DNA from: Rugalucina vietnamica
Lineage: Eukaryota > Mollusca > Bivalvia > Lucinida > Lucinidae
Length of the DNA stretch: 64,000 nt
NCBI GenBank assembly: GCA_964017185.1
Contig: OZ024877.1
Location: forward strand, 692,501 to 756,500
Direction of reading: 5' to 3'
Shown: piece by piece, positions 9,072-55,863 of the stretch
Position numbering within the stretch: the first letter of the stretch is position 1
Layout of the letters: the number at the start of each line of letters is the position of its first letter
Translations under genes and position numbers: made by a program
The notes under the pieces: model-generated
The model's input: only the letters and a program-made list of their open reading frames with translations
What the model was told of the DNA's origin: nothing
Databases searched by the model: none

Positions 9072-10392
9072 ATGGATAAGGAGGAAACTTCAGATACAGA
9101 ACATAAAACCCGTTTGAATAAAGGTCTAATTAGTTCTAAGTCGCCAGATGAAATCAAAGTACAAAAATCGCCACTTCACGGGTCTAGAACATTTGAGGCA
9201 AACACGAAGCTCATTTCCAAAGAGCGTGATTTAATTAGGCATGAGGAAAGAAGATTGTTGTCATTTCCTTACCCAGAAAACCCAATTGTTGAAAATTGTC
9301 AAATAGGAGCGCTTAATCTAATGCCATTTTTTCAAAATGATTATTGTTTGCGATGCGGAAGGACGCTAGCGGTTTATAAACATAGTTTTTGTTTGCTATG
9401 CGGAAAATATGAACTCCGACGCAAAGAACCCGTTTGCTTTCCTTGCAAAGAGATGCTGTGGGGCGGTTGTCTGTGCGGAAAATTGGAGGAACCAGAGGTA
9501 AAGCTTGTGAGAAAAATGGAATTGTGTTGTTATATGTGGGATCGTCGCTATATGTACATGTATGATGCGTACCCATTTTTCTTTAGAAAATACCAAAGAA
9601 TGCTTCATCTTCATTGTGGGTGTACTCTTGGGGAATATAGCCAGGAACAGAAACATTTTTGCAGCGTTCAAAACGTAGATGATACGGAAAAGTGTTTGTT
9701 GTGCACAATGTTGCTCGATTTCAAAATAAGAATAGAACTTGAAAATTTCGTTTCTTTAATGTCTGATGAATTCGGTGATGTGTATGGTAGGCAGTTGCCT
9801 GCGATTGCTCCTTACAAAAGAAGAGGTAGATCTGCCATGGATGTACTTATTAACGTGCAGCGCATTCTTTTGAGCAGCATTACACATCCAGTATTGTATA
9901 GATTCGCCGACTGGTTCTTTACCAAACAGATATTCCGAGTTCAACACAATCACACTGACAAGCAGAGTCTACAACAAGAACTCATATGTAAAACGGAGGC
10001 GTTATCTGTCCACGACATCTACAATAATGAGCAAGTCGAAATGCTGCAAAGCATGTTGTTCATTGTCTTAGGCATTGACGAACAATGCAGAAATCTTCCA
10101 CTTTATGACGTTACTCCATATGACATTTCTATTGCAAATTGCATATTGAAAACACTGGAAAAATCTCAGTTAGACCTGTTGCAAAAACTTCATATCTATC
10201 TTGCTCAGGCGAAACTTATGCAAATTTATGGAGACAAATCTAAATTCAACCAGTATCTTATGTCAGCAGAAGCTCTTGCACAGAAGTATCGAGACCGTGC
10301 ATTACGAGATTGGGTTGTGTTTATAAAAACACTTCCTGTAGAGGACCAACGCCATGCCGAACGAGCTGTAAAAGCTTCATTATCACGACAAG
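9072..10392 (+). CDS. gene A exon 1 (Cys-rich and helical region)
   Basis: Encodes residues 1-440 and ends in phase 1 at CACGACAAG|GTATCA. Its second half (FADWFFTKQIF, LQSMLFIVLGID, LHIYLAQAKLM, YLMSAEALA) aligns with gene B exon 1, while the Cys-rich first half does not. The frame stays open to 10508, but gene B and the continuation at 10669 favour the splice. Confidence 0.85.
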
Positions 10393-13300
10393 GTATCATT
10401 AATCCACTCAGTCAAAATGCCGTATATCCACATTTAATTTTATTCTTATTTTCAAATAGTCATTTCAGTTTTCGATTCCTGCAATGTAGGCGCGTCTATA
10501 AATGTTAAAGACATGATACACCTGTGGTTTTTATGTCGCCTGACATCCCTTTTGATAAACGTCTCCATCAAGTGCATTGTAGTCAGGTAATAGAAAATGA
10601 TGATATATTGTTGCGCGTTTAAATTTTCGGATACTTAGATATCATTTCAATTTTCCATGCGTTTTCAGGTACCTTCGTAAGACAATCTGATCCAAGTGAC
10701 ATATTAGATGTTTGGCCGGGATATGAGCAGAAAAATCCATGCCAGAAAGCTTTTATTGTTGATCTCACTTACATCAATATCCAAGGCGAATGGGGAACTT
10801 TGTTGACGGAAGGTGGACATATTCAGAAACATTTAGTGCAACAAGCAACTAAAGTAGCTCTTCAGTCTAAAGACCTACCCATAGCACAAGAACTACGACT
10901 CAGCGTTGCAAAGTATATAAGACAATCTGATCCAAGTGACATAATAGATGTTTGGCCGGCATATGAGCAGAAAAATCCATGGGAACCTATTTTTGTTGTT
11001 CTCACTTACTCCAATATCCAAGGCGAATGGGGAACTGTGTTTGGATTCCGTGTCTTTAAACGGCGCCATGATTTTGTTAGTTCAGAAGCATCAATAATTA
11101 TAAATAGCAAAAAGGTTCAGGAAAACCCGCTCTGCTTTTCAGACTTTGACAAACTGAAAACAGTTACCCAATCAGATAAGTTGATAAAGAAACATAGCAA
11201 CATAACAATCGTAAACGCATGTTCGTGTCGATCGAGAAGGGGCGGGGACGAGATATACGAGGAAACTTGTGTCGTTATTCACTGCCTTGTGAAAGGGCTT
11301 ATTCCTTTTCTAGAGGATCCGTTTCCGAGAAGTATTTCAGGTTTTCCGGTAGATGTCCGCGAAGGTTATGTGACAATGGGAATGAACCGAGAGAATGACC
11401 AGTCTATCGGCTTGAACAGAATGCAACCTGATGTGGCTGAGAATAATGCTGAAGACCATGAAATGGTTGATCAAAGACAACAAGAATACCATTCGTTGTG
11501 CGAACAGGTAAAGTGAGAATAGAAAATACCGTAATTGATAGTGGCTGTTATTCACATTCATGATATAAAGCTAGGGTGTTTCAAATCTACACCAAGTGTA
11601 CAATCTAAAACTAACACTGGTGAGAAGTCTGCCCAGCGGATTTTGACAAGAATGACCATTGAAAAGTATGAGTGCTTTCAATTGAAAAACAAAATCATAT
11701 TACACTTAAGGAATAAAGATACGCATCTGACGTTATTTTGGACGTTTTATTGACGTCTGAAATTTACAGTTTATAATTTCTACAGAACAAAAATTATTTT
11801 CTTGAATAAAAGGCAAGCCGAATAAAATTTTACTGGTTCTAATGCATTTTTTCGATTGACGTTAGTGACGTTAAACGTCCTATTACATAGCCGTATGTTT
11901 CGAACTGATCAATGATTATATCTGCAATCACTTTTCGGTGTTTTCGAAACAAAATATTGGCGTGGGTTCAAATTTGATATTTATTGATCCTGGTTACAAG
12001 GTGTGCTACTGTAGGTCAATGTGGTTACGTGCTCGCCATTAAGCTTACTTCACCGACGTAGTGGCTCAACCTGCTTGATATTGCTCTCACATAATAAGTT
12101 CAGTAACACCACATACTTGCATTACAAAACATGCTTTTAGTGACCCAAAGTGTTTGTTGCGTCTCTTCATTCCTTAAGTATATATGGAAACAAGGATGTA
12201 TACATTATATTCTTCAGATGCACGATCTGGACCTTGTTGGACCTTGCATACAGATAGGTAGTAGATGTACGGATATAAATCCAAATTTACTGATAGGATC
12301 TACAATTAGCAGGACTGGGGCGAAGCCTTTGACTGGGACACTGGGAGGCTTTGTTCGGCTTTCAGAAGAAAATATGGGTTTCCTGACATGCGCTCATGTG
12401 GTTGGGCTAAAAAAGGGCCAGACGGTGTCCCAACCATCACATGCAGAGTTGCCTCCTTTGCACAGATCCCCTAAGTATTTTGTGCAGCTTTTTTATTATT
12501 CCAAGACATGGGATTTAATTCCAGATAATACTTTGAAATTACATGTATGTATGTAATCGTGATTTGTGTATTTTTTGCAATTTGCGATCGGTACAAGTCA
12601 AAGTCTATGGAAGGAGTTAAAAACCTCGCCATGTGTTGATCAGCTGGCTAACTGTCACTCCGCTCCACTTCGGTACCTCGTTCCACTTCCTTGACAGCTT
12701 AGCATAGGTTGCATTGATTGCGGATTTCGTAAGCGACTTGCAGCTGTTATTTTGCTACAATTATATTAATCGTATAATTTTTGTTATGTATTTGTACCAG
12801 TGCCGAAGATCTTCCAGTAAGCACATAGAATTGCCTAAAACGTTTCACTTAATGAGGAAAAATATACGATTTTCGACTTTGAGAGGCTAATTCTACAATA
12901 GTCTCCCCTGAAGTATTTATAGACATCTTTAAAAATTTCCATAGAAAATGAAGTATTTTATTATTCTGCGTACTTTTACAACTAGAATATTTTTAATTTA
13001 TATATGTCATATATGCAAGAAAAGGCCTAACATAAGTTAGAATAACACAGTTCTACAGTTTTGCTGAATTTTCATTTTCGACCCATGGCTGAATATATCC
13101 AATTATTTCCGTCGGTATGGAGAGGTTAAACGAAATACCGATTAAAATATTCCGTCCTGTAGTGGGTTGGTGTCCTGCATATGGTATAGATTAATTAGAT
13201 AAAATAGATAAATTGCTAGTTTCGTCTCAATTAAAACTTACCTCTACCATAAATACATACAACTGTACATACCCTCATTTAGGAAATTCCTAGTATGAAA

Positions 13301-16300
13301 AATATGGCAATTCTTATGAAAAAGCATCTGATATTACTTGTGTAGCGTCATAAACGACAAGCGTCACATAGAAAGGCACATGAAAAGAGGCTGTCCTGTA
13401 TTAGCTTGAGGAACCTGACGAACATAAAATTCGATATAACGTTTCTAATGATTTCTTTCCAGAACAATATGTGGCCATGTTGCGCATGCAGTGTTCACTC
13501 CAGGGAGTTGTGACCAGGCTGGAGTAGATGCCGCTGTTGTTGAAATAACAGATAGAGAACCGACTGGCGGTGATTTTATATGGGTTTCACCAGAGAGTCA
13601 GGAAGCTGCTGGTAAGGGTCAATTGTTTAACGTTTCCCTTTTGGATGCTGATATTTGTTAGTTGATAAAAAGGTTCAAAAGCCCGCCAGTAATTTTATAT
13701 TACTGATCGTTCCAAGGCGATACTTCTGTGGTGGTTCTTATTGTTTTATGTCTTGGTGTTTAAATTTTTGTGCTGTTTGTGCCTTATGTATGTTTTCATA
13801 TTTTTAGTTAAGTTTTGGTAACTGAGTGGTCACCTATTGGGAAAATAGCTGCTCATTCGGCTTACGATATGTTTTCAAGGTATAAGTACCTGATTGTTAA
13901 TTTAGTTTTTTCCCACCTCGGTTTTTGCAGTGGGAATCTCTTTCGGATTGCGCCTTTTCCTGATCGTTACCTACCGTTGTACCTTTCAAGTAGGCAATGA
14001 TCAGAAAGAAATTCCCACTCCAAATACCGAGATGGGAACAACAAAATTGACAATTAGGTACTTATACTTAGAAAACATATTGTAAGCTGAGTCAGCAGCT
14101 TTTTCCCAATAGGCGGCCACTTAGTTACCCGAACTTAAATAAAATGAAAAAAGAGTCAATAAGCAATGCTTATTAAATATCCCCGCAGGGTAGTTGTTTA
14201 CCACAAAATTATTTTGGCAATATAATTTCTTCATGCAAATGTCCAATGGGTGTACATCATGTAGGTATGATATCAAATTGCTCCATCAAAAACTGTGGTA
14301 GGAGTTGATCGGCCCATGAAAGCCCTTACCTGTAAAAAAACTAAAAAAAATTGTCTAAGTTCTCATAGCTGTAATTTTGTCAAAAATTATATTTTCGCAA
14401 TAACATTTCTTCATGCAAATTCCAATGGGTGTACATCATGTAGGCATGATATCAAATTGTTCCATCAAAAACTGTGGTAGGAGTTGATCGGCCCGTGAAA
14501 GCCCTTACCTGCAAAAAAACTGCCTAAGTTCTCATAGCTGTCATTTTGTCAAAAATTATTTTTTTGCAATAACATTTCTTCATGCAAATGTCCAATGAGT
14601 CTACATGATATAGGCATAATATCAAAAAGTTCCAACAAAAACTGTGGTAGGAGTTGATCGGCCCGTAAATGCACTACCTTCACTGTATACAAAAGCCATC
14701 AAGAACTATAAAGGGAAGTAACTCAAAAGGGACTGGCCCCTAGCCCTTAATTTTTGCATGTACATATTTGCCCCATAGATATGCAGATGCCTGCAAAGTT
14801 TCATGAAGTTCCATCAAAGGGTCTTCAAGATATTAAAGAAACAAAACGTTACGGACGGACGGACGGACGCGGACGCACGGACGGACGCACGGATGGACGG
14901 ACGGACAACGTGAAAACAGTATACCCCCCTTAAAACTTCGTTTTGGCGGGGGGTATAAATATAAAAACGTACATAATAAAACGTACATAAGCTATTTCTC
15001 ATTAGATGGTCACACGACAACCTTCACCGAATCATTTATAATCACACATATGTTGAAATTGGTTTCATAGCGAACCCCAACAGAGCGGCTAGTTATAAAT
15101 CATTTCTTGGAGACGCCTTTATTGATCGTACAATGCTATTTTGTCCTAAGCTTCAGAAAACGTTCAAGCAGTGCATTTATATGTTCGTATAATACTCTGA
15201 AAAAGGTAAATGTAGGCAATGATCAGGAAAAGGCACAGTCAGATGGAAATTCCAACAATCTATACCTATACTATAAAACAAGTCGTAAGCCAAGTGAGCA
15301 GCTAATTTCCAATAGGCGGCCAGTCAGTTGCCCGAACTTAAAAAGATATGAAAATGCTCATGGAAGACAAGCAGATGGAGATTTTGAACTATGATGTGGA
15401 CTATGAAAGGATCGAGATAACATATTACCTGATAGCTAAAGATCACTTGGTAAATCATGCATCTCCGCAACTTAGAGCTTAGAACAAATGTATTAAACAA
15501 ACACATATGGACCATCTGAAAGCCATTTATTCTGTACAAAAAGATCAATTCAACTTAGGTTTCAAAGCATGTAATTTAAATTTTGTGCTTACGCAGAGTT
15601 ATTTCGGTTATAAGCAGTAGCGAATTTATGAACATTAGTCTAGGAAAAGGTAAATGTAAAACAGGTAAATGTAAAACCAATGGACCTGGCACCAGTGCGT
15701 CACCTAAGCCCCTCCTTGAGCAATTCCGACTCCCCAAAACAACATTAATACTTTCGTTTGACATTAAAACTCTCTGTGCAGAGAGCAAGATGTCAAGCCC
15801 TTTACGGCGGGATACAATGTTGTTTTGCAACCCTTGTGACACAGGTTAAAGCCACCCAGTAAATTTTTTATTACTGATCGTTCCAAGGCGGTACCTCTGT
15901 TGTGGTTCGTATCGTTTTATGTTTTGGCGTTGAATTTCTGTGCCGTTTGCTCCTTACGCACGTTTTATTATTTTTTGGTTATTTACATTTTCAGTAAGCA
16001 ATTAATTATACATAGAGGATCTTACACGAGTGGTCATTTCATATGAAATTTATTAAACGAGCCTTCGGCGAGTTTAATAAATTTCATGTGAAATGACCAC
16101 GAGTGTAAGATTCGTTTTATCATATGACTTTTAAAATAGGATGTTATCGCCTTCGAAAGGAACATTTTTTCAACGAAAATTTACATTGTTGTTACGGACG
16201 TCGTCAATGACGTTACGTATTCCCGCAAAAGTGTTAATACACGTGTGGTCATAATACGATTTTTATGACATGACGTTATCCACTGGAAACAGCGACGTCA

Positions 16301-16802
16301 TATGATAAATAAACGTATCATTACTTTGATTTGCTGTTAATGTCCTTCAGGTTTTGCTTCTGCTCTGAAGTTTTCGTCTGGAAAGGTCTTGACACGGGAT
16401 GAACTGAGGGAGAATAGACGTACAGGTGTCATCAAGGTTGGCTCTCAGTCAGGATTGACCCGGGGCAGCCTGTATCTGACGGAAACCTTTGTACGTGTCA
16501 GCAACAGGGATATGGTTCTTCCAGGAGGTGACAAGGTGGAGTTCTACACGCAAATGGAAATTCAATCCTATGCTGGATCAAAGGCATTCTTTGAGCTGGG
16601 TGATTCTGGCTCTCTGGTATTTATGCCACTGAAGAATAATGAATTACATTGCATTGGGTTAGCGATAGGAAAAACAAGTTATTCGTCGTGTTTGGTTACT
16701 CCTATAAATGCCGTTCTTGAGAGGCTTGGATTGAAAGACAAACTGGTACAGTTTGGGTGCCCATACGCTGCAGTGAAAAATGGTTTACTTTGGCGAGAGT
16801 GA
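9072..16802 (+). CDS. gene A: Cys-rich / TPR-like / PA-clan serine protease protein
   Basis: Five exons (9072-10392, 10669-11507, 12218-12474, 13463-13611, 16351-16802) join in frame to 1005 residues. The start ATG at 9072 has a strong context (GCCATGG). Residues 92-135 hold Cys pairs (92/95, 107/110, 122/125, 133/135), with more at 182/184 and 208/211, suggesting a zinc-binding module. Residues ~275-405 are helical and TPR-like. Residues 441-720 form a central domain ending in VDVREGYV. The C-terminal protease has H780 (FLTCAHVV), D828 (GVDAAVV) and S941 (ELGDSGSLVF). There is no signal peptide, so it is probably intracellular. Paralogue of gene B (51008-55863, opposite strand). Substrate and pathway are unknown; an immune sensor/effector role is only inference. 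Introns are 276, 710, 988 and 2739 bp. AATAAA occurs at 16806 and 17201. Confidence 0.85.
10669..11507 (+). CDS. gene A exon 2 (central domain, internal duplication)
   Basis: Encodes residues 441-720, from a TTTTCAG acceptor to a GAACAG|GTAAAG donor (phase 0). The first ~124 bp (10677-10800; RQSDPSDILDVWPGYEQKNP) duplicate 10917-11037 (RQSDPSDIIDVWPAYEQKNP) in frame, 240 bp apart. The domain holds NIQGEWGTVFGFRVFKRR, EETCVVIHCLVKGLIPF and GFPVDVREGYVTMGMN. Gene B has unrelated sequence where A has the first duplicate, so that part may be a recent rearrangement. Confidence 0.8.
11508..12217 (+). other. gene A intron 2
   Basis: AT-rich intron of 710 bp. I see no gene, RNA or repeat family in it. 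It ends in TATATTCTTCAG. Confidence 0.7.
12218..12474 (+). CDS. gene A exon 3 (protease, catalytic His)
   Basis: 257 nt, the same length as gene B exon 3. Encodes QIGSRCTDIN, TGTLGGFVRL and FLTCAHVVG; the His of TCAH is the expected general base. It ends in phase 2 at CCCCTAA|GTATTT, a weaker donor than the CCAG|GTTAAA of gene B at the same position. The boundary is fixed by the matching length and phase. Confidence 0.8.
12475..13462 (+). other. gene A intron 3
   Basis: AT-rich intron of 988 bp ending in TTTCTTTCCAG. No recognisable gene or repeat in it. Confidence 0.7.
13463..13611 (+). CDS. gene A exon 4 (protease, catalytic Asp)
   Basis: 149 nt, identical in length to gene B exon 4. Encodes TICGHVAHAVF, GVDAAVVEI and GDFIWVSPES; the Asp of VDAAVV matches the PA-clan triad position. 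Strong TTTCCAG acceptor and CTG|GTAAGG donor (phase 1). Confidence 0.88.
13675..14140. repeat. R1 inverted pair (tail-to-tail) in gene A intron 4
   Basis: R1 sequence in sense orientation (13675-13990, ending CCTACCGTTGTACC) is followed at once by R1 in the opposite orientation (from AAGTAGGCAATGATC). The result is a foldback of about 150 bp arms meeting at their 3' ends. Confidence 0.75.
14170..14680 (+). repeat. ~175 bp tandem repeat, three units
   Basis: Units share ATTTCTTCATGCAAAT, CCAATGGGTGTACATC and AAAACTGTGGTAGGAG, starting near 14200, 14390 and 14565. Non-coding, in intron 4 of gene A. It runs into a dispersed repeat end at 14690-14955. Confidence 0.8.
14690..14955 (+). repeat. 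dispersed repeat end with GGACGGACGG run
   Basis: TTTCATGAAGTTCCATC, then (GGAC)n-rich sequence and a GGCGGGGGGTATAA ending. The style matches 8840-8950, and it is directly joined to the preceding tandem units. Confidence 0.55.
15205..15350 (-). repeat. R1 fragment
   Basis: GTAGGCAATGATCAGGAAAAGG, AGTCGTAAGCCAAGTGAGCA and AATAGGCGGCC match the R1 3' end in antisense orientation. Short decayed copy in gene A intron 4. Confidence 0.7.
15846..15985 (+). repeat. R1 fragment
   Basis: TTACTGATCGTTCCAAGGCG, TGTGGTTCGTATCG and TTATGTTTTGGCGTT match R1 in sense orientation. Decayed copy in gene A intron 4. Confidence 0.7.
16021..16109. repeat. 89 bp near-perfect palindrome
   Basis: Arms of about 38 bp (CTTACACGAGTGGTCATTTC ... 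GAAATGACCACGAGTGTAAG) separated by a short GAGCCTTCGGCG loop. It would extrude as a hairpin 240 bp before gene A exon 5. Probably a small foldback element; an RNA hairpin in the pre-mRNA is possible. Confidence 0.85.
16351..16802 (+). CDS. gene A exon 5 (protease, catalytic Ser, stop)
   Basis: Follows TGTCCTTCAG. Encodes ELGDSGSLVFMPL, with the nucleophile in GDSGS, then IGLAIGKTSYSSCLVTPI and a stop at 16800-16802. About 92% identical to gene B over the first 131 residues; the last ~20 residues differ (FGCPYAAVKNGLLWRE here). Confidence 0.9.
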
Positions 16803-32000: not shown

Positions 32001-35000
32001 ACAGGTCGGGTTAGATACAATTGTGTAAACTTTTCTACATTTGAAAAGTTTACAAGTGTATACCTACCTTTCCATGATGAAATTAATTTCAACTTACCTA
32101 ATCCAAAGTTATTTACTACTCGCGGCGGGCCCCCAATACAGTTAAATTACAAGTAATTTAACCATCCTTATCATCTTAATGAGTATAAATACTCAGTCGT
32201 GGACTTGCTTTCCCATATTCTTATTGATGACTGTTTAAGTATGGTAAGTTTTGACATAAAATGTCAAACTACTGAAACGAAAATTAGAGTTTTATGACAG
32301 GGTCTTGTACAGACAAAGCTGGACCGTGTTTGTTCCATGGAACTCCGTCTGCTTCTGAGGTTTACATCTGTAAATAAAGCATCTATTATATTGATTAAAC
32401 AATGTTATCGTTATCGTTATTAAAATGATTGCAAAAACAGTTTGTCTTAAGGTTTAATTATTCGCGATTGATGATTGATCATTGCGTTGGTTTGGAACTA
32501 AAAATCTACCTAAAACAGTATTAGCATTTTATGCTCCTAACCGGATTATTTGAACACAAAGTAATTTGCAAAATCACTGACAAAAATAATCAGTTACCAT
32601 AATAATACATACCGGTAACGTAGATGACAATTCTACCAGTGTGCTTGATGAGCTTTCCAGATGCGTACGAGCTCACAGCACCAGTAAGACCAAAGCATAT
32701 CATCGAGTATCCGACCATGTGTATACCGAGTGGGCAGGTAACAAAAGCCTAAAATAGCCAAATTTGTATTGCTGTGTATGAAGATTCAGATAGATTTAGA
32801 GCATTTGTAAAACGGGTTTTGCACCGTCTGGGTTGAAATAACGGATACTATTTTCTTTATTGTTCCACTTTCAATTCATTGCTTACTTTCCGGGTCTGGC
32901 GTCAGACTCTATGATGGCCCCGACATAAAGCTATTCATTTTAGTTGGTTGGGGCCGGAGCTTCTTGTCTGTTGCTTGGCCCACCGGGGTTCAACTGGTGG
33001 TTTTCTTTTGCTTCGGAGTTAGTAGGTTATTCGGCGCCCAGGGATCTCCATCGTCGGGCAGCTTACTCAATCTGTGAGTCCTCTTTTTTGATTCATGATG
33101 GAATTTATCATGATTTATTTGTTTGTCCATGATGATTCATTGACTAGTTAGAGATTCACCACGAGGACCCAACAACTAACTTAATGTTTTGAACCTCTGA
33201 ATAAGCTGAGGGTGAGGTTAGGTACCTGTAAAACCGGTTTAAGCCCGCCAGTATTTTATATTACTGATCGTTCCAAGGGGATACTTCTGTGGTGGTTCTT
33301 ATTATTTAATGCCTTGGTGTTTAAACATTTTTGTGTTGTTGTCGCCTTGTGTGTGTGTAATCAAATTTTTCGTTCAGTTTGGTTAACTGAGTGGCCACCT
33401 ATTGGGAAAATAGGGAAAATAGCTGCTCATTCGGCTTACGAAATGGTTTTTGGTATAAGTACATTTTTGTTAGTTTGGCTTTTTCCCGCCTCGGTGTTTT
33501 TTTGTTGTTGTTTTTTATTTTTTGTTTTTTTTTGTGAGGAATCTTTTTCTAATTGCGCCTTTTCCTGATCGTTGCCTTCTTGTACCTTTTTGTTTTGCAA
33601 TTCTCTGTTCCGTTAGACGTGGTAGTTTGATGGCACCCTGAGGTTTTGTTTTATACTTTATGTGCAGGTCTAAGTTTTTCTAGATGAAAAAGGTATTAGC
33701 TTATTAATCACTAGGCATTATCGCCCACACTATAACGATCAAAGTCTATTTAAATGAATGATTACATCAATCTGAAACATTATGCTCTTTCTAACAAATA
33801 ATGTTTCATAACATCTTTAAGTACACATGATGTGATGTTGTAAGACTTGCAAATAATATGATATGACGAAAACAAGACAGTTAGTTATTAGTTATTTGTA
33901 CGCTGAATTAGATTTTATATGAGAAAAAGAGGAAAATTAACATACCTTTAAGATGTCAGCTACAACAAACCCATTACATACAATAGTATACATGCACATC
34001 ACCAGTAAGAGGAGGAATTGTCCATCAAACAGCATTGTGAAGGTGTTTCTTGCTTGGAAGTACACGCTCTTTATTTCTATGAGTGTGACAGCATAATTCG
34101 GCAGTGGGTCCAGAAATATTATCATAATGACTGTCGAGGCTATGATACAAAGAGAGTAGAGTCCGAGTAATATCGTTTTCCTCACGTCGTCGATGTCATT
34201 TTGAGATCCTATGGTGGCAATGTTATTGCAGTACCCTGAACCACAGACTGAGGTAGTGTTTATGTGTGGAGTTGAGACTTCTATGTCCGTCATGCTTATA
34301 TTGTATAGTATATCTGTGTCAAATGTATCATTCGTTCCGTTAAAAGTCAGACCTATACCGTGGTTTTTCATTGGCTGTGGCACCAGTACAAGGGATGAAA
34401 TCAAGTTTCCGAAGACAAAAGCCAGTTGCAACAGTAGAAAGAATATACCGTAGTATTTGCTGATGACATTGTCCGCTGGTTTACCTTTACGATCAGATTC
34501 TTCAACTCCGATTTCAGATATATAAGTAGAAACTGCATTCCAGAGGATAACTTTACTCAGTCCGAGAATGAATGACGCGGGTAGAAAGAAGGCAAAGGTT
34601 GGGTGAAAATTCACAAGTACGTAGAACAGCGGAGCCAGACATCCAAATACGAGACATGGCTTAGGTTTGTACCGTTTCACGACAACAGGACTGAATAGAC
34701 TACCGAGTAAAAAGGCAACAAAGCTCATAGCTATTGAATATACACCGATTCCTCCCTCACTGTTCATACTACTCTGAAGATTAGTCAAACCAAACATTGG
34801 TATAAACATGAGCGTTACAGCGGTGCTAACTACTAAAAGATTTTTCATGTTATTGTCGCAACACAATCGCTTATCAGTCTGATAATCTACATCCACCAGA
34901 GATTCATTGGTTGGCAACAGAATCAAACTGGGTTCTCTAATATCTCCTTTCCCAAGTTCAATACTTCCAATAGCGTTTGATAAGACTCTTGCCAGAAGTC

Positions 35001-35747
35001 TGTTACTTCCACCATATATGTCCCTCCTTGATCCCGAGTATGACCTCTGATCGAGTGTGCTCGTTCGACTACGAATAGCAGGTAATTCTCTATGTGAATT
35101 GTAAACGCTGGACAAACTACCGAATTCCCAGCAAGCTCCGATGACAGGAAGCGGTGTACTGGTGACTTCGTATACTTCAACGTAGTCAATATCGTTAACA
35201 TATAGCGGCTCGTGTTTTCCAAAATATGGCAGCATTTTCCTTGGACTTTTAGGCGTTACTTGGTTAGAGTTTGGTTCAAAACTGTTTGGTTCGATGTCCA
35301 ACGAAAGTCTTTGATTGTATGAATGAATGGTATCCATTGTCACGACCTGATTAGTGAAATTATCATCAACGTCTTCAGTATCGTGATCGTAAAGCTTCTC
35401 TTGTATCGTTTGATTAACATTATCACAGACAAGTAAGTTTTCAGCAACACAGTCGCGACTTTCAGCTAATGGTTCATCTGGTGTTCTAGATGGTTCAAGT
35501 AAAGGAACGTCACTACTGTATGTAGAAACCGCGTCTTCACTTTCTTCTGGACTTTGTTGAACTGCAATGAGTTTGCCTTTAATTTCCCCATAAAACATAC
35601 TGTCATCTATATGTCCCTGTTCTTCACAGTGATTGGGAGTTTGGACCAGAACATGCCGGTCTGTTTGAAGAACGTGGTCTTCCTTGTCGGTGTTATAAGT
35701 AGAGATTGCTTCGCCATCATTTGCTGTTATTCCTCCAGGTTCAAACA
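28855..35747 (-). CDS. UNC93A: UNC93A-like multi-pass membrane protein
   Basis: Four exons on the minus strand (33946-35747, 32613-32748, 29292-29423, 28855-29096) join in frame with GT-AG borders to give about 770 residues. After a ~290-residue polar N-terminal region come the UNC93/MFS-fold hallmarks: MFGLTNLQSSMNSEGGIGVY near the first membrane segment, further hydrophobic segments, then GIHMVGYSMICFG in exon 2 and GLWGFAEGIWQSQI in exon 3. N-glycosylation-type Asn sites (NGTNDT, NISMTD, NTTS) lie in one loop. Vertebrate UNC93A is poorly understood; UNC93B1 ferries Toll-like receptors and nematode UNC-93 regulates a potassium channel. The true start is upstream: the first visible exon begins at a TTGTTTCAG acceptor. 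UNC93A proteins are usually near 450-600 residues, so the long N-terminus is unusual. Confidence 0.88.
29292..29423 (-). CDS. UNC93A: UNC93A-like, exon 3 of those visible
   Basis: 132 nt between TTTTCAG and AATA|GTATGT. Encodes TNVGCLIWMMAWSP and LLGLWGFAEGIWQSQIN, the conserved UNC93 WGxxDAxWQTQ-like segment. Phase 1 in and out. Confidence 0.87.
29424..32612 (-). other. UNC93A-like intron (3.2 kb)
   Basis: Long AT-rich intron. A 116-codon plus-strand open frame at 30744-31094 has no recognisable domain and is probably chance. No repeat family of this window was recognised in it. Confidence 0.5.
32613..32748 (-). CDS. UNC93A: UNC93A-like, exon 2 of those visible
   Basis: 136 nt bounded by ATTTTAG and TTACCG|GTATGT. 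Encodes AFVTCPLGIHMVGYSMICFG then GAVSSYASGKLIKHTGRI, a signature stretch of UNC93 proteins. Phase 0 in, phase 1 out. Confidence 0.88.
32880..33600 (+). mobile_element. R1 copy, nearly full 3' region
   Basis: From GGCGTCAGACTCTATGATGG to GCCTTCTTGTACC, sense orientation on plus. Shares with 2966-3640 and 47280-47945 the phrases GGGATCTCCATCGTCGGGCA and AAACCGGTTTAAGCCCGCCAG. Lies in the first visible intron of the UNC93A-like gene, antisense to it. 5'-truncated and non-coding. Confidence 0.8.
33946..35747 (-). CDS. UNC93A: UNC93A-like, large exon (N-terminal extension and first TM segments)
   Basis: 1802 nt from TTTGTTTCAG|TG to CTTAAAG|GTATGT (phase 0). The first ~290 codons are acidic and Ser/Thr-rich (e.g. 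EDVDDNFTNQ, SLDIEPNSFEPNS) with no membrane segment; membrane segments start at NNMKNLLVVSTAVTLM. The first codon is split with an unseen upstream exon. Confidence 0.88.
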
Positions 35748-35948
35748 CTGAAACAAACAGAATTACCTGATGAAGAAATCAAAGGCAAAGGGCTGTAACT
35801 AAGGTTGGAAGAACTTGTAGCCCAACCCTTTTCCTTGTAAATTTACATGTTTCAAAGCAATAAAATATGTTAAAATCGATCACACACAGTATCATCTTGT
35901 ACAATACACAATGATGGCATTACCGCCGGTAAAGCCAAGAATTGTCTA

Positions 35949-41458: not shown

Positions 41459-42595
41459 CATGCTTATGGATGCTTTTCAGGACAGTGACACTGGTTTTCC
41501 AATCAGGTACCGTTTTGATGGCAACATATTCAACCTCAGAAGGTTGCAAGCCAAAACTAAGGTCCAGACTGATGTGCTAGATGAGCTCCTCTATGCAGAT
41601 GATATGGATAAGAATGCCAACACAGAGGCAAAAATGCAAAGAGCCATGGATCAAGTCTCACAGTCATGTGATAACTATGATCTCACAATCAGCACAAAAA
41701 AGACAGAGGTTGTACACCAACCAGCCCCCGGAAAACCATATAATGAACCAACCATCACTGTGAATGGGCAAAAACTGAAAGTTGTTGACAAGTTCACCTA
41801 CCTGGGAAGCACTCTCTCCAGAGCAGTGCATATTGATGATGAGATCACTGCCAGAATTGCAAAAGCTAGTGTGGCATTCGGAAGACTCCGTGCAAATGTC
41901 TGGGAGCGAAATGGAATCAAGCTTGACACCAAGCTGAAAGTCTACAAGGCTGTGGTACTGCCAACCCTCTTGTATGCATGTGAGACCTGGACAGTATACC
42001 AACGCCATGCAAAGAGACTTAACCATTTCCACTTAAGCTGTTTGAGAAAGTTGTTAAAAATCAAGTGGCAGGACAAGATTCCAGACACAGAGGTCCTGAG
42101 GAAAGCAGGGATGCAAAGCATGCATACAGTCTTAAAGCTAGCACAGCTAAGATGGACTGGCCATGTTATAAGAATGCCTGATGCGCGACTTCCAAAGAAA
42201 GTTTTCTATGGAGAACTACAGGAAGGAAAGCGCTCTCAAGGTGGCCAGAAGAAACGCTACAAAGACACCCTCAAAGCCTCTCTGAAGGATTTCGAAATAC
42301 CAATGGGGTCCTGGGAACAGACTGCACAGGAGCGATCAAAGTGGCGAGGTCTCATCAACAAAGGAGCAGCTCTCTATGAAAAGAAGAGAATCTGTGAAGC
42401 TGAAAGAAAGCGAAGAGAGCGCAAAGCCAAAACAAATGTGCCACCAGCAGACTCTATGACATTGACTTGCTCTACTTGCAACCGACAGTTTAGAGCCAGA
42501 ATTGGCCTAGTCAGCCATCAAAGAACTCACCAACACACATCAGCACAATTCAAGAAATAATGATGGTCTTTCTCATTAGTGAGAGACGAACTATC
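41459..42595 (+). mobile_element. LINE copy 2, 5'-truncated, 8-bp target duplication
   Basis: 1137 bp of the same LINE as 4691-7898, beginning in the RT domain just before LMDAFQDSDTGFP. The flanks are direct repeats ACATTTAT (41451-41458 and 42596-42603), and there is no poly-A tail. The coding frame is intact through YADD and the C2H2 finger to the stop at about 42558-42560. Differences from copy 1 are few, so both insertions are recent. It fixes the true 3' end of the family at ...ACGAACTATC. Confidence 0.92.
41460..42560 (+). pseudogene. LINE RT C-terminal half and C2H2 finger, open frame
   Basis: 366 codons: RT from LMDAFQDSDTGFPIRYRF through ELLYADDMD, the thumb region (VVLPTLLYACETWTVYQRH, LAQLRWTGHVIRMPDARLPK) and the C-terminal finger [21 protein letters not shown] (C-x2-C-x12-H-x3-H type). 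It lacks the endonuclease and most RT motifs, so it cannot move by itself. Confidence 0.88.
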
Positions 42596-42603
42596 ACATT
42601 TAT

Positions 42604-47279: not shown

Positions 47280-48005
47280 GGGGGTACAAGTAGGCAACGA
47301 TCAGGAAAAGGCGCAATCAGAAAAAGATTCCCACTCCAAAAACCGAGGCGGGAAAAAACCAAACTAACAATAAGGTACTTATAGCATGAATACATTTCGT
47401 AAGCCGAATGAGCAGCTATTTTCACAATAGGTGACCACTCAGCCATCTAAACTTAACTAAAATATGATAACATACATAAGGCGCCAACAGCACAAAAATT
47501 TAAACACCAAGACATAAAACAATAAGAACCACCACAGAAGTATCGCCTTGGAACGATCAGTAATATAAAATTACTGGCGGGCATAAACCGGTTTTATAGG
47601 ATCCTAACCTCACCCTCAGCTTCTGCAGTGGTTCATAACATTTAGTTAGTTGTTCGGTCCTCGTAGTGAATCTCTAACTAGTCAATGAATCATCATGGAC
47701 AAACAAATAAATCATGATAAATTCCATGATGAATCAAAAACGAGGACTCACAGAATGAGTAATCTGCCCGACGATGGAGATCCCTGGGCGCCCAATAACT
47801 TACTAACTCCGGAGAAAAAGAAAACCACCAGTTGAATCCCGGTGGGCCAAGCAACAGACAAGAAGCTCCGGCCCCAACCAACTAAAATGAATAGCTTTAT
47901 GTCGGGGCCATCATAGAGTCTGACGCCCGACCCACCGGCGTGCAATTAAAGAAGGCAGCATAGTTATCAACCGTGATTGGGTTAAAAACTAAGCATGCAG
48001 ACTGT
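47280..48005 (-). mobile_element. R1 copy nested in the Tc1 element
   Basis: Antisense on plus, from GGTACAAGTAGGCAACGATC to AAACTAAGCATGCAGACTGTC. Very similar to 2966-3700 throughout, including the NCTPVGRASDS-type coding edge. Younger than the Tc1 element it splits. Confidence 0.85.
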
Positions 48006-48250: not shown

Positions 48251-48338
48251 ATTCTAACGCTCAGATATCCTAAAAACATCTGTACTTCCGGATGACGCTA
48301 TTTCATATGACGCATTGCCTGTAACTCATTATCACATT

Positions 48339-48410: not shown

Positions 48411-49135
48411 CGGCGTATACCGCAAGGCGATACACGTGTGTATAATACCTAGCACAACTACATATTAACTTTTATACCCCAACTGTCCCTTGAAGCACTT
48501 TCGTCTTCCCAAGCTGATGTTTTACATATCAATGAGCTTTGTCATTAGCACCCACCCATTTCATCAGTCATGTAAAAACGAATACATGGGTATTGAAACT
48601 CTTGTCAGGTGTCAAAAAGGATCCATCGCCATTCTCATTAATGTTCTTATTGCTCTTAAAGGGACAATACTTTTGCTTCTATAGCCAAGGTGACCTGTCA
48701 CCATCAACCCCAATAAACAACAGGGAAGAATTCGCTTAACTTAGTGATTATGTGATCATTATGCTCTAACAGACCGAAGCAAATTGAAGGGACACTAATC
48801 AAAAGATACTGATACCTTTCATTGGCCTCTTTCGGTGAGAAAATAATATTTCTCCTTGGGATTCTTAACTGTTATCAGAATTATTAAAGTGTTCTGCAGT
48901 CCAAAATGTGTCTTTGATAAATAAAATAGTCACACTTTGCCGATGGCAAAATGCCCTGTTTGTTGCCTAAAACGATAATCCTACACAAATTGTTCGAGCC
49001 TTTTGGAGGACTTGGTAACAATAACTACAATGTACTTACAGAATAATAAAAGAAGTAACGCATTACGCATTCACTTGCAACATCTTTTCGTAAGAAGTTT
49101 ACCTAATTTGCATGTTCTTCAGCCTTTAATCAAGG
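48411..49135. other. unassigned stretch with a dispersed-repeat fragment
   Basis: 48500-48680 contains CATTAATGTTCTTATTGCTC and TTAAAGGGACAATACTTTTG, loosely like the text after the hammerhead-like motifs at 22550 and 56130. No gene recognised. Confidence 0.45.
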
Positions 49136-49391
49136 CATTACGAAAACACGCCCATGCAATATACATAAATTTTTAAAGTAGTAAAAAATGAAAATTTTCA
49201 GGAGAAAAAATTGATATTTTTCTTATTTTTGCTCAAAACATAGATTGTGGTAAGGCGGTTCTAACAAGTACCCACAATCTATGTTTTGGAGCAAAAATAA
49301 GAAAAATAGGTATACCCCTGCATACCCAAGCTTTGCTATATAAAAGTGGGGTTCAAGGGGGTATACATTACACGGACATGTTTTCGTGATG
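49136..49391. mobile_element. palindromic MITE M1 copy, short centre
   Basis: CATTACGAAAACACGCCCATG to GGACATGTTTTCGTGATG. The palindromic centre is reduced (GATTGTGGTAAGGCGGTTC), giving 256 bp. Confidence 0.85.
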
Positions 49392-50708
49392 AATATCTTA
49401 CGACACATTCATATTCGATTCATTTTTATTAAAAGAGAATGCTCACTAAGAGGTGAAAAATTCATGACAGCTAACTACAATGCAATACCAGGGTATGGTA
49501 AAGTATGGCATTAAAAATTCTGGAATTAACAATAACAAAAGTATTTTTAGAAAATAGAGCAAAGAAACAATACATATGTAGAAATACACGTGAAACAATT
49601 AACACAAATATATCAAAAATTCCCTATAACCATATATGTCAGAACCTTTGTAAATATGCATTTGTTTATTTTCTATAAGCAACTTCAAAGTTAATAAGAC
49701 CTACAAGAACTAAATAAGCTTGTCAACTGAAATGGAACAGCAAAATGCGGATATATTGACTTTTCTCTTAGAATACAATGAAATTATATGGCACAAAATG
49801 GGCGTTTATGATAACCAAAACCTTCCAATAAGCCCTGTACATATCTGTGCAAGTAAATTCTGCCTTTTGTGTTGTGGTATAGTACGGTTATACGTACCTG
49901 GGTATCATTACCATCAAATCTTGGCTATAAAAGGTGCGATGAACCTGCATTTTTAAACTGCATGTAGTAATGTATTTTCAAAAATATGCAAATAAAACAA
50001 TCATTTGTCATTAACAATGGTAAATGAATGATTGGCGAAAATTGCGCTAGTGCAAGTTAATGATGCACTTTACATGTGGTGAATAAACACGGTTTAGATA
50101 AAAAAAAATGTTACCCATTTGCCGCTTTTAATCCAAAATGATGCAAAAACTTGGACTTCAACAATAGCTTGAACTGACATTCTTTGAGAGAAGCGACTAT
50201 ATCCGTGAAAAAAAAAAGATGAGCAATACTTAAACCCCTTCAGTAACCCTTTAGATTTGGCAAAAAGGAGTCAAAGTGAAATACAGTAAAGCATCGCATG
50301 GCTTTTGGAAATAAACGGTTATGAATGAATTTTCTTACATTACCCATAACGCTGCTCATGCTGTAAACCGTCGATTTTGGCAAACTCCTAACCCAAGATA
50401 TTATTTATAAAGATTGTAATTATTAATATACCAATATACACATGTTCTGATAGAGCTATGGACAGATGCCTGCCGTGGCAGAAGTGATTAATACTTGCGT
50501 TCAAATACTTCAAAAGCTTAATACAATCTATCCATTTGCACACTTTCCCTGCTGGCTTTCAATACTTGGTATAGCAATCGAATTAAATTCTAATATGTTA
50601 TGAAATGTTCAACAAAATGAAATAAGGCAAAGTCCATGTTGAAATATATGTGTAGCGCTTTCACTTTTGAGCAGTTATTTCTTCTTTGCACATCATACAG
50701 CAAAGCTA
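49392..50708. other. unassigned stretch
   Basis: AT-rich sequence without a recognisable gene or repeat. A 78-codon plus-strand open frame at 49720-49956 has no domain and is probably chance. Confidence 0.5.
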
Positions 50709-50986
50709 CATCACGAAAACATGTCCGTGTAATGTATACCCCCTCGAACCCCACTTTTATATAGCAAAACTGGGGTATGCAGGGGTATATCTATTTTTCT
50801 TATTTTTGCTCCAAAACATAGATTGTGGGTACTCGTTACAGCGCCTCGGCGAGGCGGTTCAAACGTGTACCTACAATCTATGTTTTGAGCAAAAATAAGA
50901 AAAATATCCAAATTTTTCCGATGAAATTTTCACTTTTTTAAGCTGAAAAAAATCTCTGTATATTGCATGGGCATGTTTTCGTAATG
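50709..50986. mobile_element. palindromic MITE M1 copy, abutting gene B
   Basis: CATCACGAAAACATGTCCGTG to GGGCATGTTTTCGTAATG, centre CAGCGCCTCGGCGAGGCGG. Its end lies only 21 bp from the stop codon of gene B (51008), so the 3' UTR of gene B probably runs through this hairpin. Confidence 0.88.
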
Positions 50987-51007
50987 AAAATGCACATTTG
51001 AACTAAG

Positions 51008-51468
51008 TCATAGTCTTCCATTACGCAAATGAAAACCATTTCTCGGTTGAGCGTTTAAGACGCCAAGCTGCATCAGTTTGTCTTTCAATCCAAGCCTCTC
51101 AAGAACAGCACTTATAGGAGTAACCAAACACGACGAATAGCTTGTTTTTCCTATTGCTAACCCAATGCAATGTAATTCATTATCCTTCAGTGGCATAAAC
51201 ACTAGAGAGCCAGAATCACCCAGCTCAAAGAATGCCTTTGATCCAGCATGGGACTGGATTTCCATTTGGTTGTAGAACTCCACCTTTTCACCTCCTGGGA
51301 GAATCATATCCCTATTGCTTATCCTTACAAAGGTTTCTGTCAGATACAGGCTGCCCCGGGTCAATCCTGACTGAGAACCAACCTTGATGACATCTGTACG
51401 TCTGTTCTCCCTCAGTTCATCCCTTGTCAAGACCTTTCCGGAAGAAAACTTCAGGGAAGAAGGAAAGC
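51008..51468 (-). CDS. gene B exon 5 (protease, catalytic Ser, stop)
   Basis: From TTTTAAG|GC to TGA at 51008-51010. Encodes ELGDSGSLVFMPL and IGLAIGKTSYSSCLVTPI. The last 22 residues (LMQLGVLNAQPRNGFHLRNG...) differ from gene A. Confidence 0.9.
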
Positions 51469-54400
51469 CTTAAAACTGAGATAAATAACGAGTCTTAAGT
51501 ATGCATCCATTGTATCTGAGTAAATGTTAATTGTATTTTAAATAACAACATATATTTCCGTCGTCCGACAACATTTATTTTGGCATAGATCTTTAAATGC
51601 TTGACGAAATTTGTGTTCAAACTGGGTTCCTTGATTAGCAGGCAAATAGAAAGTGTAACACGGCTTCTGTTGTAACTATATTAATCTTTTGCTTACTGCT
51701 GTTTTCGACGTTAGGAAAGACGATGATATTTTCGATTCATTTTTGGGGGAAATATCAGAAGTACATTTCTTTTGAAGCTGACTTCTTGTAACGATTTTGT
51801 CTAGTGCCCCTGAACACTCCCATACATTCGAGAATAAGTACAATTTGTTCAAGGTGTAGAAGAGTTTTGCTGGTATCATTCCAGCAAGTAATAAAGATAT
51901 CGAGAGCGCTTTACCCATTCCAGATCATGTCAGTTATAAACATAAATGTCAATCAAAGTCCTAATACCTGCAGCAGACAGACTCTCTGGAGAAACCCATA
52001 TGAATTGACCGTCATTTGGTTTTCTTTTTGATATTCGAACAACAGCAGCATCTACTCCAGTCTCATCACAACGTCCTGGGTCAAATACTGCCTGTTCGAC
52101 GTGACCACAAATAGTTCTGTAATAAATGTAAGAATTTTTAAAAAGAGAAAACAAACAAACAACTTGTCCTTTTTACTTGCATGTAGGCCATGCATGAACC
52201 GTTCATCTTTTTTATAAAGAAATAATTCTTCCGAGTTAGGCATTCCTTTAAGTTTAACAATGATGCACATTCTTTAGTATCTTTGCTTTTCAGCCAAACC
52301 TTGTGTATTTAAAATGCATAAAAAAGATTAAAATGTTCAAAATTTACGTTTACGTAACTATAAAGTATAGGCTATGTTTGTTTATTTTAATACAGACAAC
52401 GTTTATCTCATTATTATCAGACTGAGAGCGATATATTTCAAACATTTAACCTGGATGATCTGTGTGAAGGTGGTAAATCTGCATGTGATGGTTGAGAAAC
52501 AGTCTGGAACTTGTTTGTGCCAACAACATGAGCGCACGTCAGGAAACCCATCTCAATCCCCGGGAGAGACACAAAACCTCCAAGAGTTCCTGTCATGGGG
52601 TTTAGTCCAGTCCTGCTTATTGTCGTACCCATCAGTAACTGCCGATTTATATCAGTACATCTAGAACCTATCTGCACACTAGGGTCTGCCAGATCTAGCT
52701 CCCCAAACTATAAAATAACAAATTAATCTATATTGCTACATTTACTCCCCAAACTATAAAATAAGTATGAGACCTACATTACTATTAGGCTTTTTACGTT
52801 ATATGTAAGATTATGCGTTAGACCTTTTTAGATTTACTTTGTACATGTCTAATTAAATGTTACATTGACATAGAATAAGCGTGACGTATAAAATTCTAAC
52901 ATAATAATAATGATGACAACATTTGCCATATTATGCGGATAACCTGTTAGACACATACACATGCCTAAAAATCTATTCAAATATACAAAGAAACATATAA
53001 GCGGGAAATGAAATGGTAAAGTTAGAAATGAAATCACATCATGCCTTGATGTGCAGACCAAAGTAAATCAGAGTTCTTTTTAGATGGAGCTGCGTAGTGT
53101 CTATTATATTTTTCAAAAAACCTTGCTGAAAAAGTATAAAGTGTTTGTCACCTTTTCACACACTGAATCTAAGTGATGATGTCGATGAACGTTGTCTACA
53201 ATAACCCAGTCACCCTCCTGCCTCACAGCTAGGCCTGGTGGCGTTCTGTCCATTCTTGTACATTGACCACCCGATGCCTGTCGATTCATTCCCATCGTCA
53301 CATAGCCTTCGCGTACATCAACCGGAACTCCTGAAATGCTTTTCGGAAAAGGGTCTTCTAAGAACGGAATAAACCCTTTAACGAGGCAATGAATGACGAC
53401 ACAAGTTTCTTTGTATATAACCTCTCCACCCTTTTTAGATCTATGTGAACAGGCATTTATGATCGTTATTTTGCTGTGGTCCTTGGTCAGACTTTCTGAT
53501 TGTGTAACAGTTTTTAGTTTATCAAAGTCTGAATAGTCTAGTGGGTTTTCCTTAACCTCTTTGCAGTTTATAACTACTGCGGCTTCTGAACTCACAAAAT
53601 CATAGCGCCGTTTAAACACACGGAACCCAAACAAAGTTTCCCATTCGCCTTGGATGTTTGAGTAAGTAAGAACAACAAAAATAGGTTCCCATGGATTGTG
53701 TTCTTCATAGGCCGGCCAAACATCGTAAATGTCACTTGTGTCGGACTGCCTTATGTACTTTGCTACTTCTAGTAGTCGTTCATGTGCGTTTTGCCTATCT
53801 GTTCGACGTAGAGCTTGTTCAATCGCATGTAGATTGGCTTCAGTCACACACTTTGGAACATGCAATCTGGTTCTGTCGTCTACATCTGTCGAGGGATTGA
53901 TATACTCTTTGAAAAAGCCAAAGACTCCTTCGTTTTGAGGAACCCTGGTGCCTGCAAAATCTGCAAACAATCAACAACAAGGAACAAGTATTTGACACAC
54001 AAAAAAGAAGAGCTTCTGCTGACTTTAGATACTCTGTCGATTTAGAAGGACTTCCATAACCACTTGATAGAAATGCAGGACGTGTCACTGATTTTTTCAA
54101 CAAGGTGTCTGCTACAGAAATGTCCTCACAGAGATTTCGTAATATGAAATATTAACGCCATAGGACTCTTTGCCTGAAACAGTGAACAGCATTCGTTGTA
54201 ATAGTGAAAATAGATGCATTCGTTGTAATAGATGTAATTGTTGTAATAGATGCATTCGCTGTAATAGTGAAACGAAAATAGATGCATTCGTTGTAATAGA
54301 TGCATTCGTTGCAATAGTGAAAATTGATGCATTCATTGTACTGGTGCCAATAGATGCATTCATTGTACTGGTGACAATAGATGCATTCGTTGTAATAGAT

Positions 54401-55863
54401 GCATTCGTTGTAATAGTGAAAACAGATGTTGTATCTTTTTTGGCTGCTGAAAATCGTCACCTTAACTAAGGTCCTCTTAAATGTTAAGGGAGGATTGTAA
54501 TTCTGTGCACTCATTGTCATCATGATTGTTAATTTAGTTTTTTCCCATCTTGGTTTTTGGCTTGGGAATTTCTTTCTGATTGCACCATTTCCTGATCATT
54601 GCCTACTTTTTACCTTTATAAGTTTAGAATTACCTTACCTTTTTCTGGTTGTTCTGCTTGGCATTTGTCTGCATGCAACGTCTCTTTAAACCTTTCAAGA
54701 CAGTCTCTCATCATTTCATTTTTGGCCTTGAAGTCAGTATTTGTTACAAGAGCTTCTGCTGCCTCTAGATACTCGGTCGACTTAGAAGGATTTCCAGTAA
54801 CCAACAGAAATTTAGCCTGCGCTAGATAGAAATGCAGAGCGTGCCATGGATTGAAACTGTCTTTCATCTCAACTGACTTCTTCAATAAGGTTTCTGCTAC
54901 AGAGATGTCCTCATCAGAGATTTCGTAATTTGAAAGATTACAGCCATAGGTCTCTATACCTAAAACCGTGAAGAGCATTCTTTGCAAAAGTGACAGTCTT
55001 TCATGCTCACAACTTTGTGTTTCATCAAAAAGACACTCCAATAATGCCAGCTGAGCCGTTCTCATTGATTCTTTCAGTCGCCTTCTATTTGTCTCATTTC
55101 CCGTGACTTTCAAAAGTTGTTTGGTATAGAACCAGCTTGCAAAACAAAATTTTAACCTATACGCCACTGGGACAACTGCATGACTTAAAGCCATTTTGGA
55201 ACACATAAGCATATCCTCGGCAGATTTAAACATGTATTTGTCGGCGAAATGTACAGCAAATACGCTATAGCATAGGGCGTCGGATGTTAGCGTATTAGAC
55301 GTGAAAGGCACTATCTTTTCAATTTCTCTTATAGTTCTGATTTCTTCTGATTCTGTGAATTCTGCAAATGTGAATCGGCAATTAAACTCCAATAATTCCC
55401 CAAGTACACATATGAGTTTATCGGCCGTGTGGTGTTTGTCTATGGCATGTCTTTGGTCACCAAGACGAGTCCTGTAATAGTTTGCAATACACCTCAACCC
55501 TTTTTCAACGCGTTCTGCTCCGCGATACCAATTTTGGTACAGCAATGCGTCTAGCTCTTCGTAAAAACGTTGTTTGGACTCATCGTTAGCATCGTGACAT
55601 TTTTTAACTTCAGCAGGCAGACTACACCTGTGCAAATATTTGCATATCTGTAATGCCCATTGGGAATTTTCCTCGCGTGAAATGCATGTGTGATCCCATT
55701 CTAGTGAAGAACTTAGTATCCTCCGATGCTCCATTATTGCCTTGAAAACATCGACACCATCTCTCGATATTTCAAATCTAGAGGGTGGTGGTGAACATGT
55801 CACAATTTGATTAAAACAATGGTCACATCGTTCAGTATTTTTACTGTCCTTCCTTGATGCCAT
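51008..55863 (-). CDS. gene B: helical TPR-like / PA-clan serine protease protein
   Basis: Five exons on the minus strand (54639-55863, 53152-53960, 52451-52707, 51968-52116, 51008-51468) join in frame to 966 residues, all with GT-AG borders. Residues 1-25 hold CDHC and C23. Residues ~95-405 are helical and TPR-like (e.g. FASWFYTKQLLKVTGNET, ALHFYLAQAKFLLVTGNPSK). Residues 409-678 are the central domain (NIQGEWETLFGFRVFKRR, GVPVDVREGYVTMGMNR). The protease has H738 (FLTCAHVV), D786 (GVDAAVV) and S899 (ELGDSGSLVF). There is no signal peptide or membrane segment, so probably cytosolic. It converges on paralogue A, with the UNC93A-like gene between. Exons 3 and 4 have the same lengths as in A. 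Function unknown: the triad predicts peptidase activity, possibly controlled by the helical part (inference). Confidence 0.88.
51968..52116 (-). CDS. gene B exon 4 (protease, catalytic Asp)
   Basis: 149 nt between TTATTACAG and GCTGCAG|GTATTA. Encodes TICGHVEQAVFDPGRC, GVDAAVVRI and FIWVSPES. The Asp sits where the PA-clan triad requires it. Confidence 0.88.
52451..52707 (-). CDS. gene B exon 3 (protease, catalytic His)
   Basis: 257 nt between TTTTATAG and TCCAG|GTTAAA (phase 0 in, phase 2 out). Encodes QIGSRCTDIN, TGTLGGFVSL and GFLTCAHVVG. About three quarters identical to gene A exon 3. Confidence 0.88.
53152..53960 (-). CDS. gene B exon 2 (central domain)
   Basis: 809 nt between TTTGCAG and GAAAAG|GTGACA. 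Encodes residues 409-678. The first ~80 codons (DFAGTRVPQNEGVFGFFKEY, HAIEQALRRTDRQNAHERL) have no clear match in gene A, where a duplicated segment stands instead. VAKYIRQSDTSDIYDVWPAY onward is shared. Confidence 0.87.
53990..54180 (-). pseudogene. partial copy of gene B exon 1 inside its own intron 1
   Basis: The minus strand reads LLQRMLFTVSGKESYG, NISYYEISV, then LLKKSV and SPSKSTEYLKSAEALLF. These match exon 1 LLQRMLFTVLGIETYG, NLSNYEISD, LLKKSV and NPSKSTEYLEAAEALV. It has frame breaks, and the ALHFYLAQAKFL part is lost. Same strand as the gene, lying between exon 1 and exon 2, so it is a decayed tandem duplication of the exon end, skipped by splicing. Confidence 0.8.
54185..54430 (-). 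repeat. 18-bp minisatellite grown from coding sequence
   Basis: About a dozen units of GATGCATTCGTTGTAATA, some with GTGAAAATA inserts. The unit is directly continuous with AGCATTCGTTGTAATAGTGAA, the intronic copy of exon 1 AGCATTCTTTGCAAAAGTGAC (LLQRML codons). In minus-strand frames it still reads LLQRMHLLQRMHL, which marks its origin. Confidence 0.85.
54527..54618 (+). repeat. R1 3'-end fragment in gene B intron 1
   Basis: GTTAATTTAGTTTTTTCCCA, TGATTGCACCATTTCCTGAT and CATTGCCTACTTTTTACC. It ends about 20 bp from the exon 1 donor. Confidence 0.75.
54639..55863 (-). CDS. gene B exon 1 (helical region)
   Basis: Codes residues 1-408 from the ATG at 55863 (AATCATGG context) to GAAAAAG|GTAAGG, phase 1 as in gene A. 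The N-terminal ~235 residues have no counterpart in gene A. From FASWFYTKQ onward the two align at roughly 35-40% (my estimate by eye). Confidence 0.88.

Follow-up and report, generated by a model that had tools for sequence, protein, structure and literature searches.

A 64,000-nucleotide stretch of the genome of the lucinid bivalve Rugalucina vietnamica (contig OZ024877.1, positions 692,501 to 756,500; hereafter the window, numbered from its first letter) holds two paralogous genes, A and B, each encoding a helical N-terminal part followed by a serine protease of the PA type. We rebuilt both gene models from the window DNA. Gene A lies on the forward strand and has five exons encoding 1005 amino acids. 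Its exon 1 (9072..10392) encodes the N-terminal helical part, whose first half, rich in Cys and in CxxC pairs, has no counterpart in B, and exon 2 (10669..11507) encodes a linker with an internal 127-bp duplication, followed by a domain that probably resembles NAL1_N of the rice protein NARROW LEAF 1 (NAL1). The protease begins in exon 3 (12218..12474) with the motif GTLGGFV and the catalytic His780 (TCAHVV), continues in exon 4 (13463..13611) with Asp828 (VDAAVV), and ends in exon 5 (16351..16802), which carries its second half, Ser941 (GDSGS), the match to the Pfam family Nal1_C and the stop codon.

Gene B, on the reverse strand, likewise has five exons and encodes 963 amino acids. The helical part, in which residues 232–404 are predicted to form paired helices, is encoded by exon 1 (54639..55863), the linker and the probable NAL1_N-like domain by exon 2 (53152..53951), and the catalytic residues His735, Asp783 and Ser896 by exons 3 (52451..52707), 4 (51968..52116) and 5 (51008..51468), respectively, the last also containing the stop codon.

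Two intact genes under purifying selection

An earlier, sequence-only reading of this DNA had proposed that both genes splice in frame into proteins of ~1000 residues with a full His/Asp/Ser set and without a signal peptide, and the rebuilt models bear this out. Reading frames are intact, all eight introns of the two genes have GT-AG boundaries, the series of intron phases (1, 0, 2 and 1) agrees between the genes, and A and B have the same lengths for exon 3 (257 bp) and exon 4 (149 bp). Hydropathy analysis found no window of 19 residues reaching 1.6 in either protein, showing neither a signal peptide nor a membrane segment. Within exon 2 of A, positions 10678..10804 (forward strand) are a partial duplicate of 10918-11041, with 89.8% identity over 127 bp; exon 2 of B has a single copy of this stretch. 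An alternative start of A exon 2 that would skip the duplication was rejected, the site used having the most pyrimidines among 13 in-frame, stop-free AG sites.

The two proteins are 74% identical in the central domain and 79% identical in the protease, compared with 36% over the stretch of the helical part that was compared (33% between the first exons). Nonsynonymous and synonymous substitution rates (Nei-Gojobori method with Jukes-Cantor correction) between A and B are 0.148 and 0.863 for the central domain, a ratio of ~0.17, and 0.134 and 0.471 for the protease, a ratio of ~0.28; these parts evolve under purifying selection. The corresponding rates in the helical part, 0.636 and 1.77, come from a poor alignment with synonymous sites near saturation. 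Since the helical part has diverged far more than the catalytic part, A and B probably differ mainly in their choice of target.

Homology of the protease to the NAL1-type family

The sequence-only reading had left the protease family unnamed. The top Pfam match of both proteins is Nal1_C (PF25819; 21.3 bits, E 1.7e-4 for A; 19.5 bits, E 5.8e-4 for B); Trypsin_2 is also weakly matched (E 0.03–0.04), scoring below Nal1_C in both. To find relatives, we built a search pattern on YVLSNNHVLA, which we take to be a motif typical of the bacterial NAL1-type family, and obtained 19 bacterial loci (L003–L021); 26 further relatives (L022–L047) came from viral contigs. The bacterial relatives match Pfam NAL1_N and Trypsin_2 as well as rice NAL1 structures, with bacterial S1 proteases close behind, and only 5 of the 19 match Nal1_C, even at E<=1. 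Together with the sub-threshold but best Pfam match of A and B to Nal1_C, this gives the family a name, NAL1-type, after a kind of protease best known from rice NAL1 and otherwise from bacterial and phage proteins not yet characterised, and the PA-type protease proposed for both paralogues is upheld, their His, Asp and Ser motifs being collinear with the family profile.

Searched against just A and B, a profile of the 19 bacterial sequences finds both (E 9.5e-9 and 3e-8), and hhalign aligns the protease with a probability of 93% (E 3.5e-7). The full family profile has 41 rows (19 plus 26 minus 4), leaving out the N-terminally truncated L005 and L012, L046 with its long insertion, and L030, which is the same protein as L029. 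With it the scores rise above those of the 19-sequence profile, to 27.3 bits for B, where the match spans both domains (residues 553–939), and 21.8 bits for A (residues 759–984). None of 1000 whole-protein shuffles per gene scored as high; hmmsearch scored 323 (A) and 343 (B) of these, and those left unscored were counted as lower. The closest single sequences found are L010, from a metagenome-assembled genome of Isosphaeraceae, and L012, from Pseudokineococcus, with E values between 3e-4 and 5e-4 when the database size was fixed at 1e8 letters; A and L010 share 29% identity over 240 residues (E 1e-9 for this single comparison), and none of 500 shuffles of either A or B scored as high against L010.

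The P-x-D-V motif of the NAL1_N domain sits at the expected position upstream of the protease in A and B. Both proteins contain the sequence VDVREGYV, previously read as the end of a separate central module; the motif stands, but, mainly on its account, the region probably holds the NAL1-type family's own N-terminal domain instead. In A this NAL1_N-like domain would cover 11199..11372 (forward strand; about residues 618–675, ending in PVDVREGYV), and in B 53299..53472 (reverse strand; about residues 569–626), inside the stretch aligned to the family profile. We tested a profile of the N-domain, with 40 rows after a length filter, on a 215-residue region against 2000 shuffles per gene; its score was attained by one shuffle for A and none for B (hmmsearch scored 1069 and 1255 shuffles, respectively, and the others were counted as lower).

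Several results weigh against reading A and B as NAL1-type proteases with a helical arm. Both Nal1_C scores fall short of the curated cut-off of 26.1 bits, Pfam NAL1_N was not reported for either protein at E<=10, and the PDB searched with the sequences and profiles of A and B alone returned no protease, only implausible matches. In pairwise comparisons, L021 was marginal (1 and 3 of 500 shuffles scoring as high) and L011 did not reach significance with this number of shuffles (11 and 17 of 500), while a NAL1 segment aligned directly was marginal for A (1 of 500) and not significant for B (25 of 500). For the bacterial relatives, 2 of the 11 NAL1 rows were tied with or below streptogrisin (8hat at 21.3, 8pn1 at 18.0), and five versions of the structure model, made for the family of a bacterial relative, ranged in mean predicted local distance difference test (pLDDT) from 75 to 53. 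The N-domain score comes mainly from a 14-residue stretch around P-x-D-V, to which B adds a weak second stretch; an initial, smaller profile of the N-domain gave no significant result, the best stretch of B being outscored by 10 or more of 2000 shuffles, and the hhalign alignment left the N-domain out. The model of exon 1 has a mean pLDDT of 48.

The protease homology to the bacterial and phage NAL1-type family is nonetheless supported by the profile and shuffle results above. Because the direct match to the NAL1 segment is marginal or not significant, we assign the module to the NAL1 type at the superfamily level and not as an orthologue of NAL1. Likewise, since the aligned part of the N-domain is mainly 14 residues long and the first profile was not significant, a complete NAL1_N domain in A and B is likely rather than certain. 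Six residues ahead of the catalytic Ser, presumably at the specificity-pocket position, stands Phe (FFELGDSGS) if the alignment is ungapped, compared with Asp in trypsin, which hints that cleavage after Lys or Arg need not be expected.

Other searches added little. Phages searched by tblastn with A and B gave nothing useful, as did NCBIfam and PADLOC for three stretches (the A protease, the B protease and B exon 2). Patterns derived from A and B matched 19 stretches in viral contigs and 71 in genome contigs, none of which was confirmed; as these patterns came from variable stretches, the lack of confirmed matches does not show that relatives are missing there. Two candidates were set aside: a plasmid tblastn match with E 0.5, antisense to a sequence that resembles an aminotransferase, and one frame from a trial of the YVLSNNHVLA pattern on viral contigs, which looks HtrA-like and was left unused. 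Among the relatives themselves, the frame of L046, from a viral contig, has 698 residues compared with ~345 in its relatives and, by eye, contains an intein-like long insertion directly after NNHVLA. An archaeal-virus relative of the NAL1-type proteases lies at 10505-11446 of HE681887.1 (Alphaspiravirus yamagawaense), annotated as a 'putative serine protease'.

Helical arm, known systems and rival explanations

The N-terminal block had been described as TPR-like. A helical block is indeed predicted, but its identity as TPR is weakly supported: a Foldseek search with the exon-1 model gave no match at E<=0.001, the best being 14-3-3 at 0.035, so we do not take TPR as established. A exon 1 matches no Pfam family at E<=10. 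In its first half, CxxC pairs are plentiful around residues 92–136, a composition that may bind zinc. Intron 1 of B contains a 27-bp minisatellite (54189-54398) and a partial, degraded copy of the helical exon (54008-54207 compared with 54748-54993, 70% identity).

The closest known system is rice NAL1 (PDB 7y77, 8pmi, 8pn2, 8has, 8hat and 8hau; Pfam NAL1_N, PF25608, and Nal1_C). It shares with A and B a PA serine protease, the order of His, Asp and Ser, and the motifs GTLG, KVG..SG.T.G and GDSGSL, and its two-part fold is linked to A and B through the bacterial relatives; A and B differ in being very distant from it and in their extra N-terminal part of ~400–440 residues. PMC12915138 terms NAL1 a plant-specific regulatory protease, and reports a plant TOPLESS-type corepressor as its substrate, based on interaction and degradation in maize and rice, a substrate that cannot be assumed for A and B. 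Several NAL1 PDB entries contain six chains, as would fit an oligomer. The bacterial, phage and archaeal-virus NAL1-type proteases have the same motif order as A and B, but their frames are shorter, mostly ~300–430 residues. In the open-licence literature, the words PF25819, PF25608, Nal1_C and NAL1_N occur in no paper, which does not imply absence from print, and a 'narrow leaf' protease together with oyster yields only an unrelated review.

We favour a reading in which the paralogues A and B are serine proteases of the cell interior, with a NAL1-type C-terminal unit and an N-terminal helical arm that binds or gates, and consider it probable. The domain could instead be an ordinary trypsin- or HtrA-like (S1/S1C) one, or an invertebrate protease of the FAM111 type, its likeness to NAL1 reflecting only the common PA fold. 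FAM111A and FAM111B, human intracellular trypsin-like proteases, resemble A and B as animal, cell-internal PA proteases with N-terminal non-catalytic domains; according to PMC9798293, they fall under Trypsin_2, the very family that A and B match weakly, and most members carry ubiquitin-like domains, with marine-invertebrate members free of them. Bacterial S1 proteases stand just behind NAL1 as matches of the bacterial relatives, and B exon 1 has a chance-level match to a ubiquitin-like Pfam family (FERM_F1, E 0.3). However, Nal1_C fits A and B better than the Trypsin_2 of FAM111, and for this reason we did not place them with HtrA or plain trypsin; the NAL1-type P-x-D-V motif lies upstream of the protease in the order of the family, and, of the relatives compared pairwise, the one that matches best is a bacterial protein of the NAL1 type. 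We judge the trypsin, HtrA or FAM111 reading improbable.

A role in conflict or immunity, with the arm sensing an invader signal and releasing the protease, would be compatible with the NAL1-type reading, and by analogy appears possible though rather unlikely. The sequence-only reading had likened the layout of A and B to sensor-effector proteins; the best support for such a role is indirect. Among 12 plasmid relatives of L010, five are annotated as DNA/RNA non-specific endonucleases, and two such proteins (L048 and L053), read by eye, contain the N-domain motif, a NAL1-type protease and a long C-terminal part. They recall the NucA-trypsin conflict systems described in PMC7159879, whose available text makes no mention of NAL1, the link being drawn here; in the two plasmid relatives a NAL1-type protease is joined to another part, a nuclease by annotation, whereas A and B have no nuclease family in Pfam and carry their extra part at the N-terminus. 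The N-termini of A and B differ, and the arm has diverged more than the protease, but non-catalytic arms commonly diverge faster. Pfam also found no STAND NTPase or death-type family in either protein, and no PADLOC model was matched by the three stretches tested. Lineage-specific expansions of TRADD-N proteins are described for bivalves and other marine invertebrates in PMC8195603; genes like A and B are mentioned in the available text of neither that paper nor PMC7159879.

The paralogues were also said to be convergent. They do face each other, but ~34 kb of DNA separates them, which includes an UNC-93-like reading frame (33940-35778, reverse strand; Pfam PF05978, E 6.3e-12). This UNC-93-like gene, the introns and the retroelements are in keeping with an animal genome. 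Retroelement and DNA-transposon pieces surround them, and A has its partial exon duplication and B its degraded exon fragment and minisatellite, as might be expected if the two genes were dead or decaying members of a family that is mobile or has lately expanded. This seems very unlikely, given frames intact over five exons, canonical splice sites, retained triads and the low substitution ratios of the C-terminal domains.

Elsewhere in the window, one retroelement piece occurs in two opposite-strand copies (4691-5829 and 41459-42599) that are 98.9% identical over 1141 bp, and is probably from a recently active element; adjoining the first copy is a reading frame (5550-7763, reverse strand) that encodes endonuclease and reverse transcriptase domains. 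SECIS_1 is matched above the Rfam gathering score at 3548-3615 (reverse), 32903-32970 (forward) and 47855-47922 (reverse), each with 37.4 bits, and all three matches sit in copies of one dispersed repeat of ~700 bp, to which the pieces at 56395-57027 and 13679-13989 are related. The SECIS_1 copy seen in the alignment retains AUGA, the AAA loop and the 3' GA. The repeat is possibly a mobile element carrying a SECIS, or else the likeness arose by chance.

A proposed mechanism and its meaning

In the NAL1-type reading, the N-terminal half would form an alpha-helical arm, probably built of repeats, and the C-terminal half would probably start with a small NAL1_N-like alpha/beta domain, ahead of a protease that has the chymotrypsin fold and a triad of His, Asp and Ser. 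A serine protease of this fold works by the chymotrypsin mechanism. We infer that the enzyme would be active and cut selected intracellular proteins, with the arm selecting the target: it may bind a partner or substrate and deliver it to the protease, or gate the protease. A and B might also form oligomers, as NAL1 may.

A bolder, rather doubtful extension is that an animal lineage made a NAL1-type protease, found elsewhere in plants, bacteria and phages, into an arm-gated intracellular sensor, in which a helical superhelix binding a peptide or partner controls catalysis, and the paralogues, as they diverge, come to recognise different proteins of the host or of intruders. If true, animals would have an equivalent of the trypsin-type conflict proteins of bacteria. 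A catalytic module of the NAL1 kind, which also occurs in bacteria, in viral contigs and in a virus of archaea, now appears in an animal, together with a helical arm, and an unnamed gene pair can be tested as part of a widespread protease family for which structures have been solved. A and B are also candidates for targeted protein cleavage in animal cells besides caspases and the proteasome.
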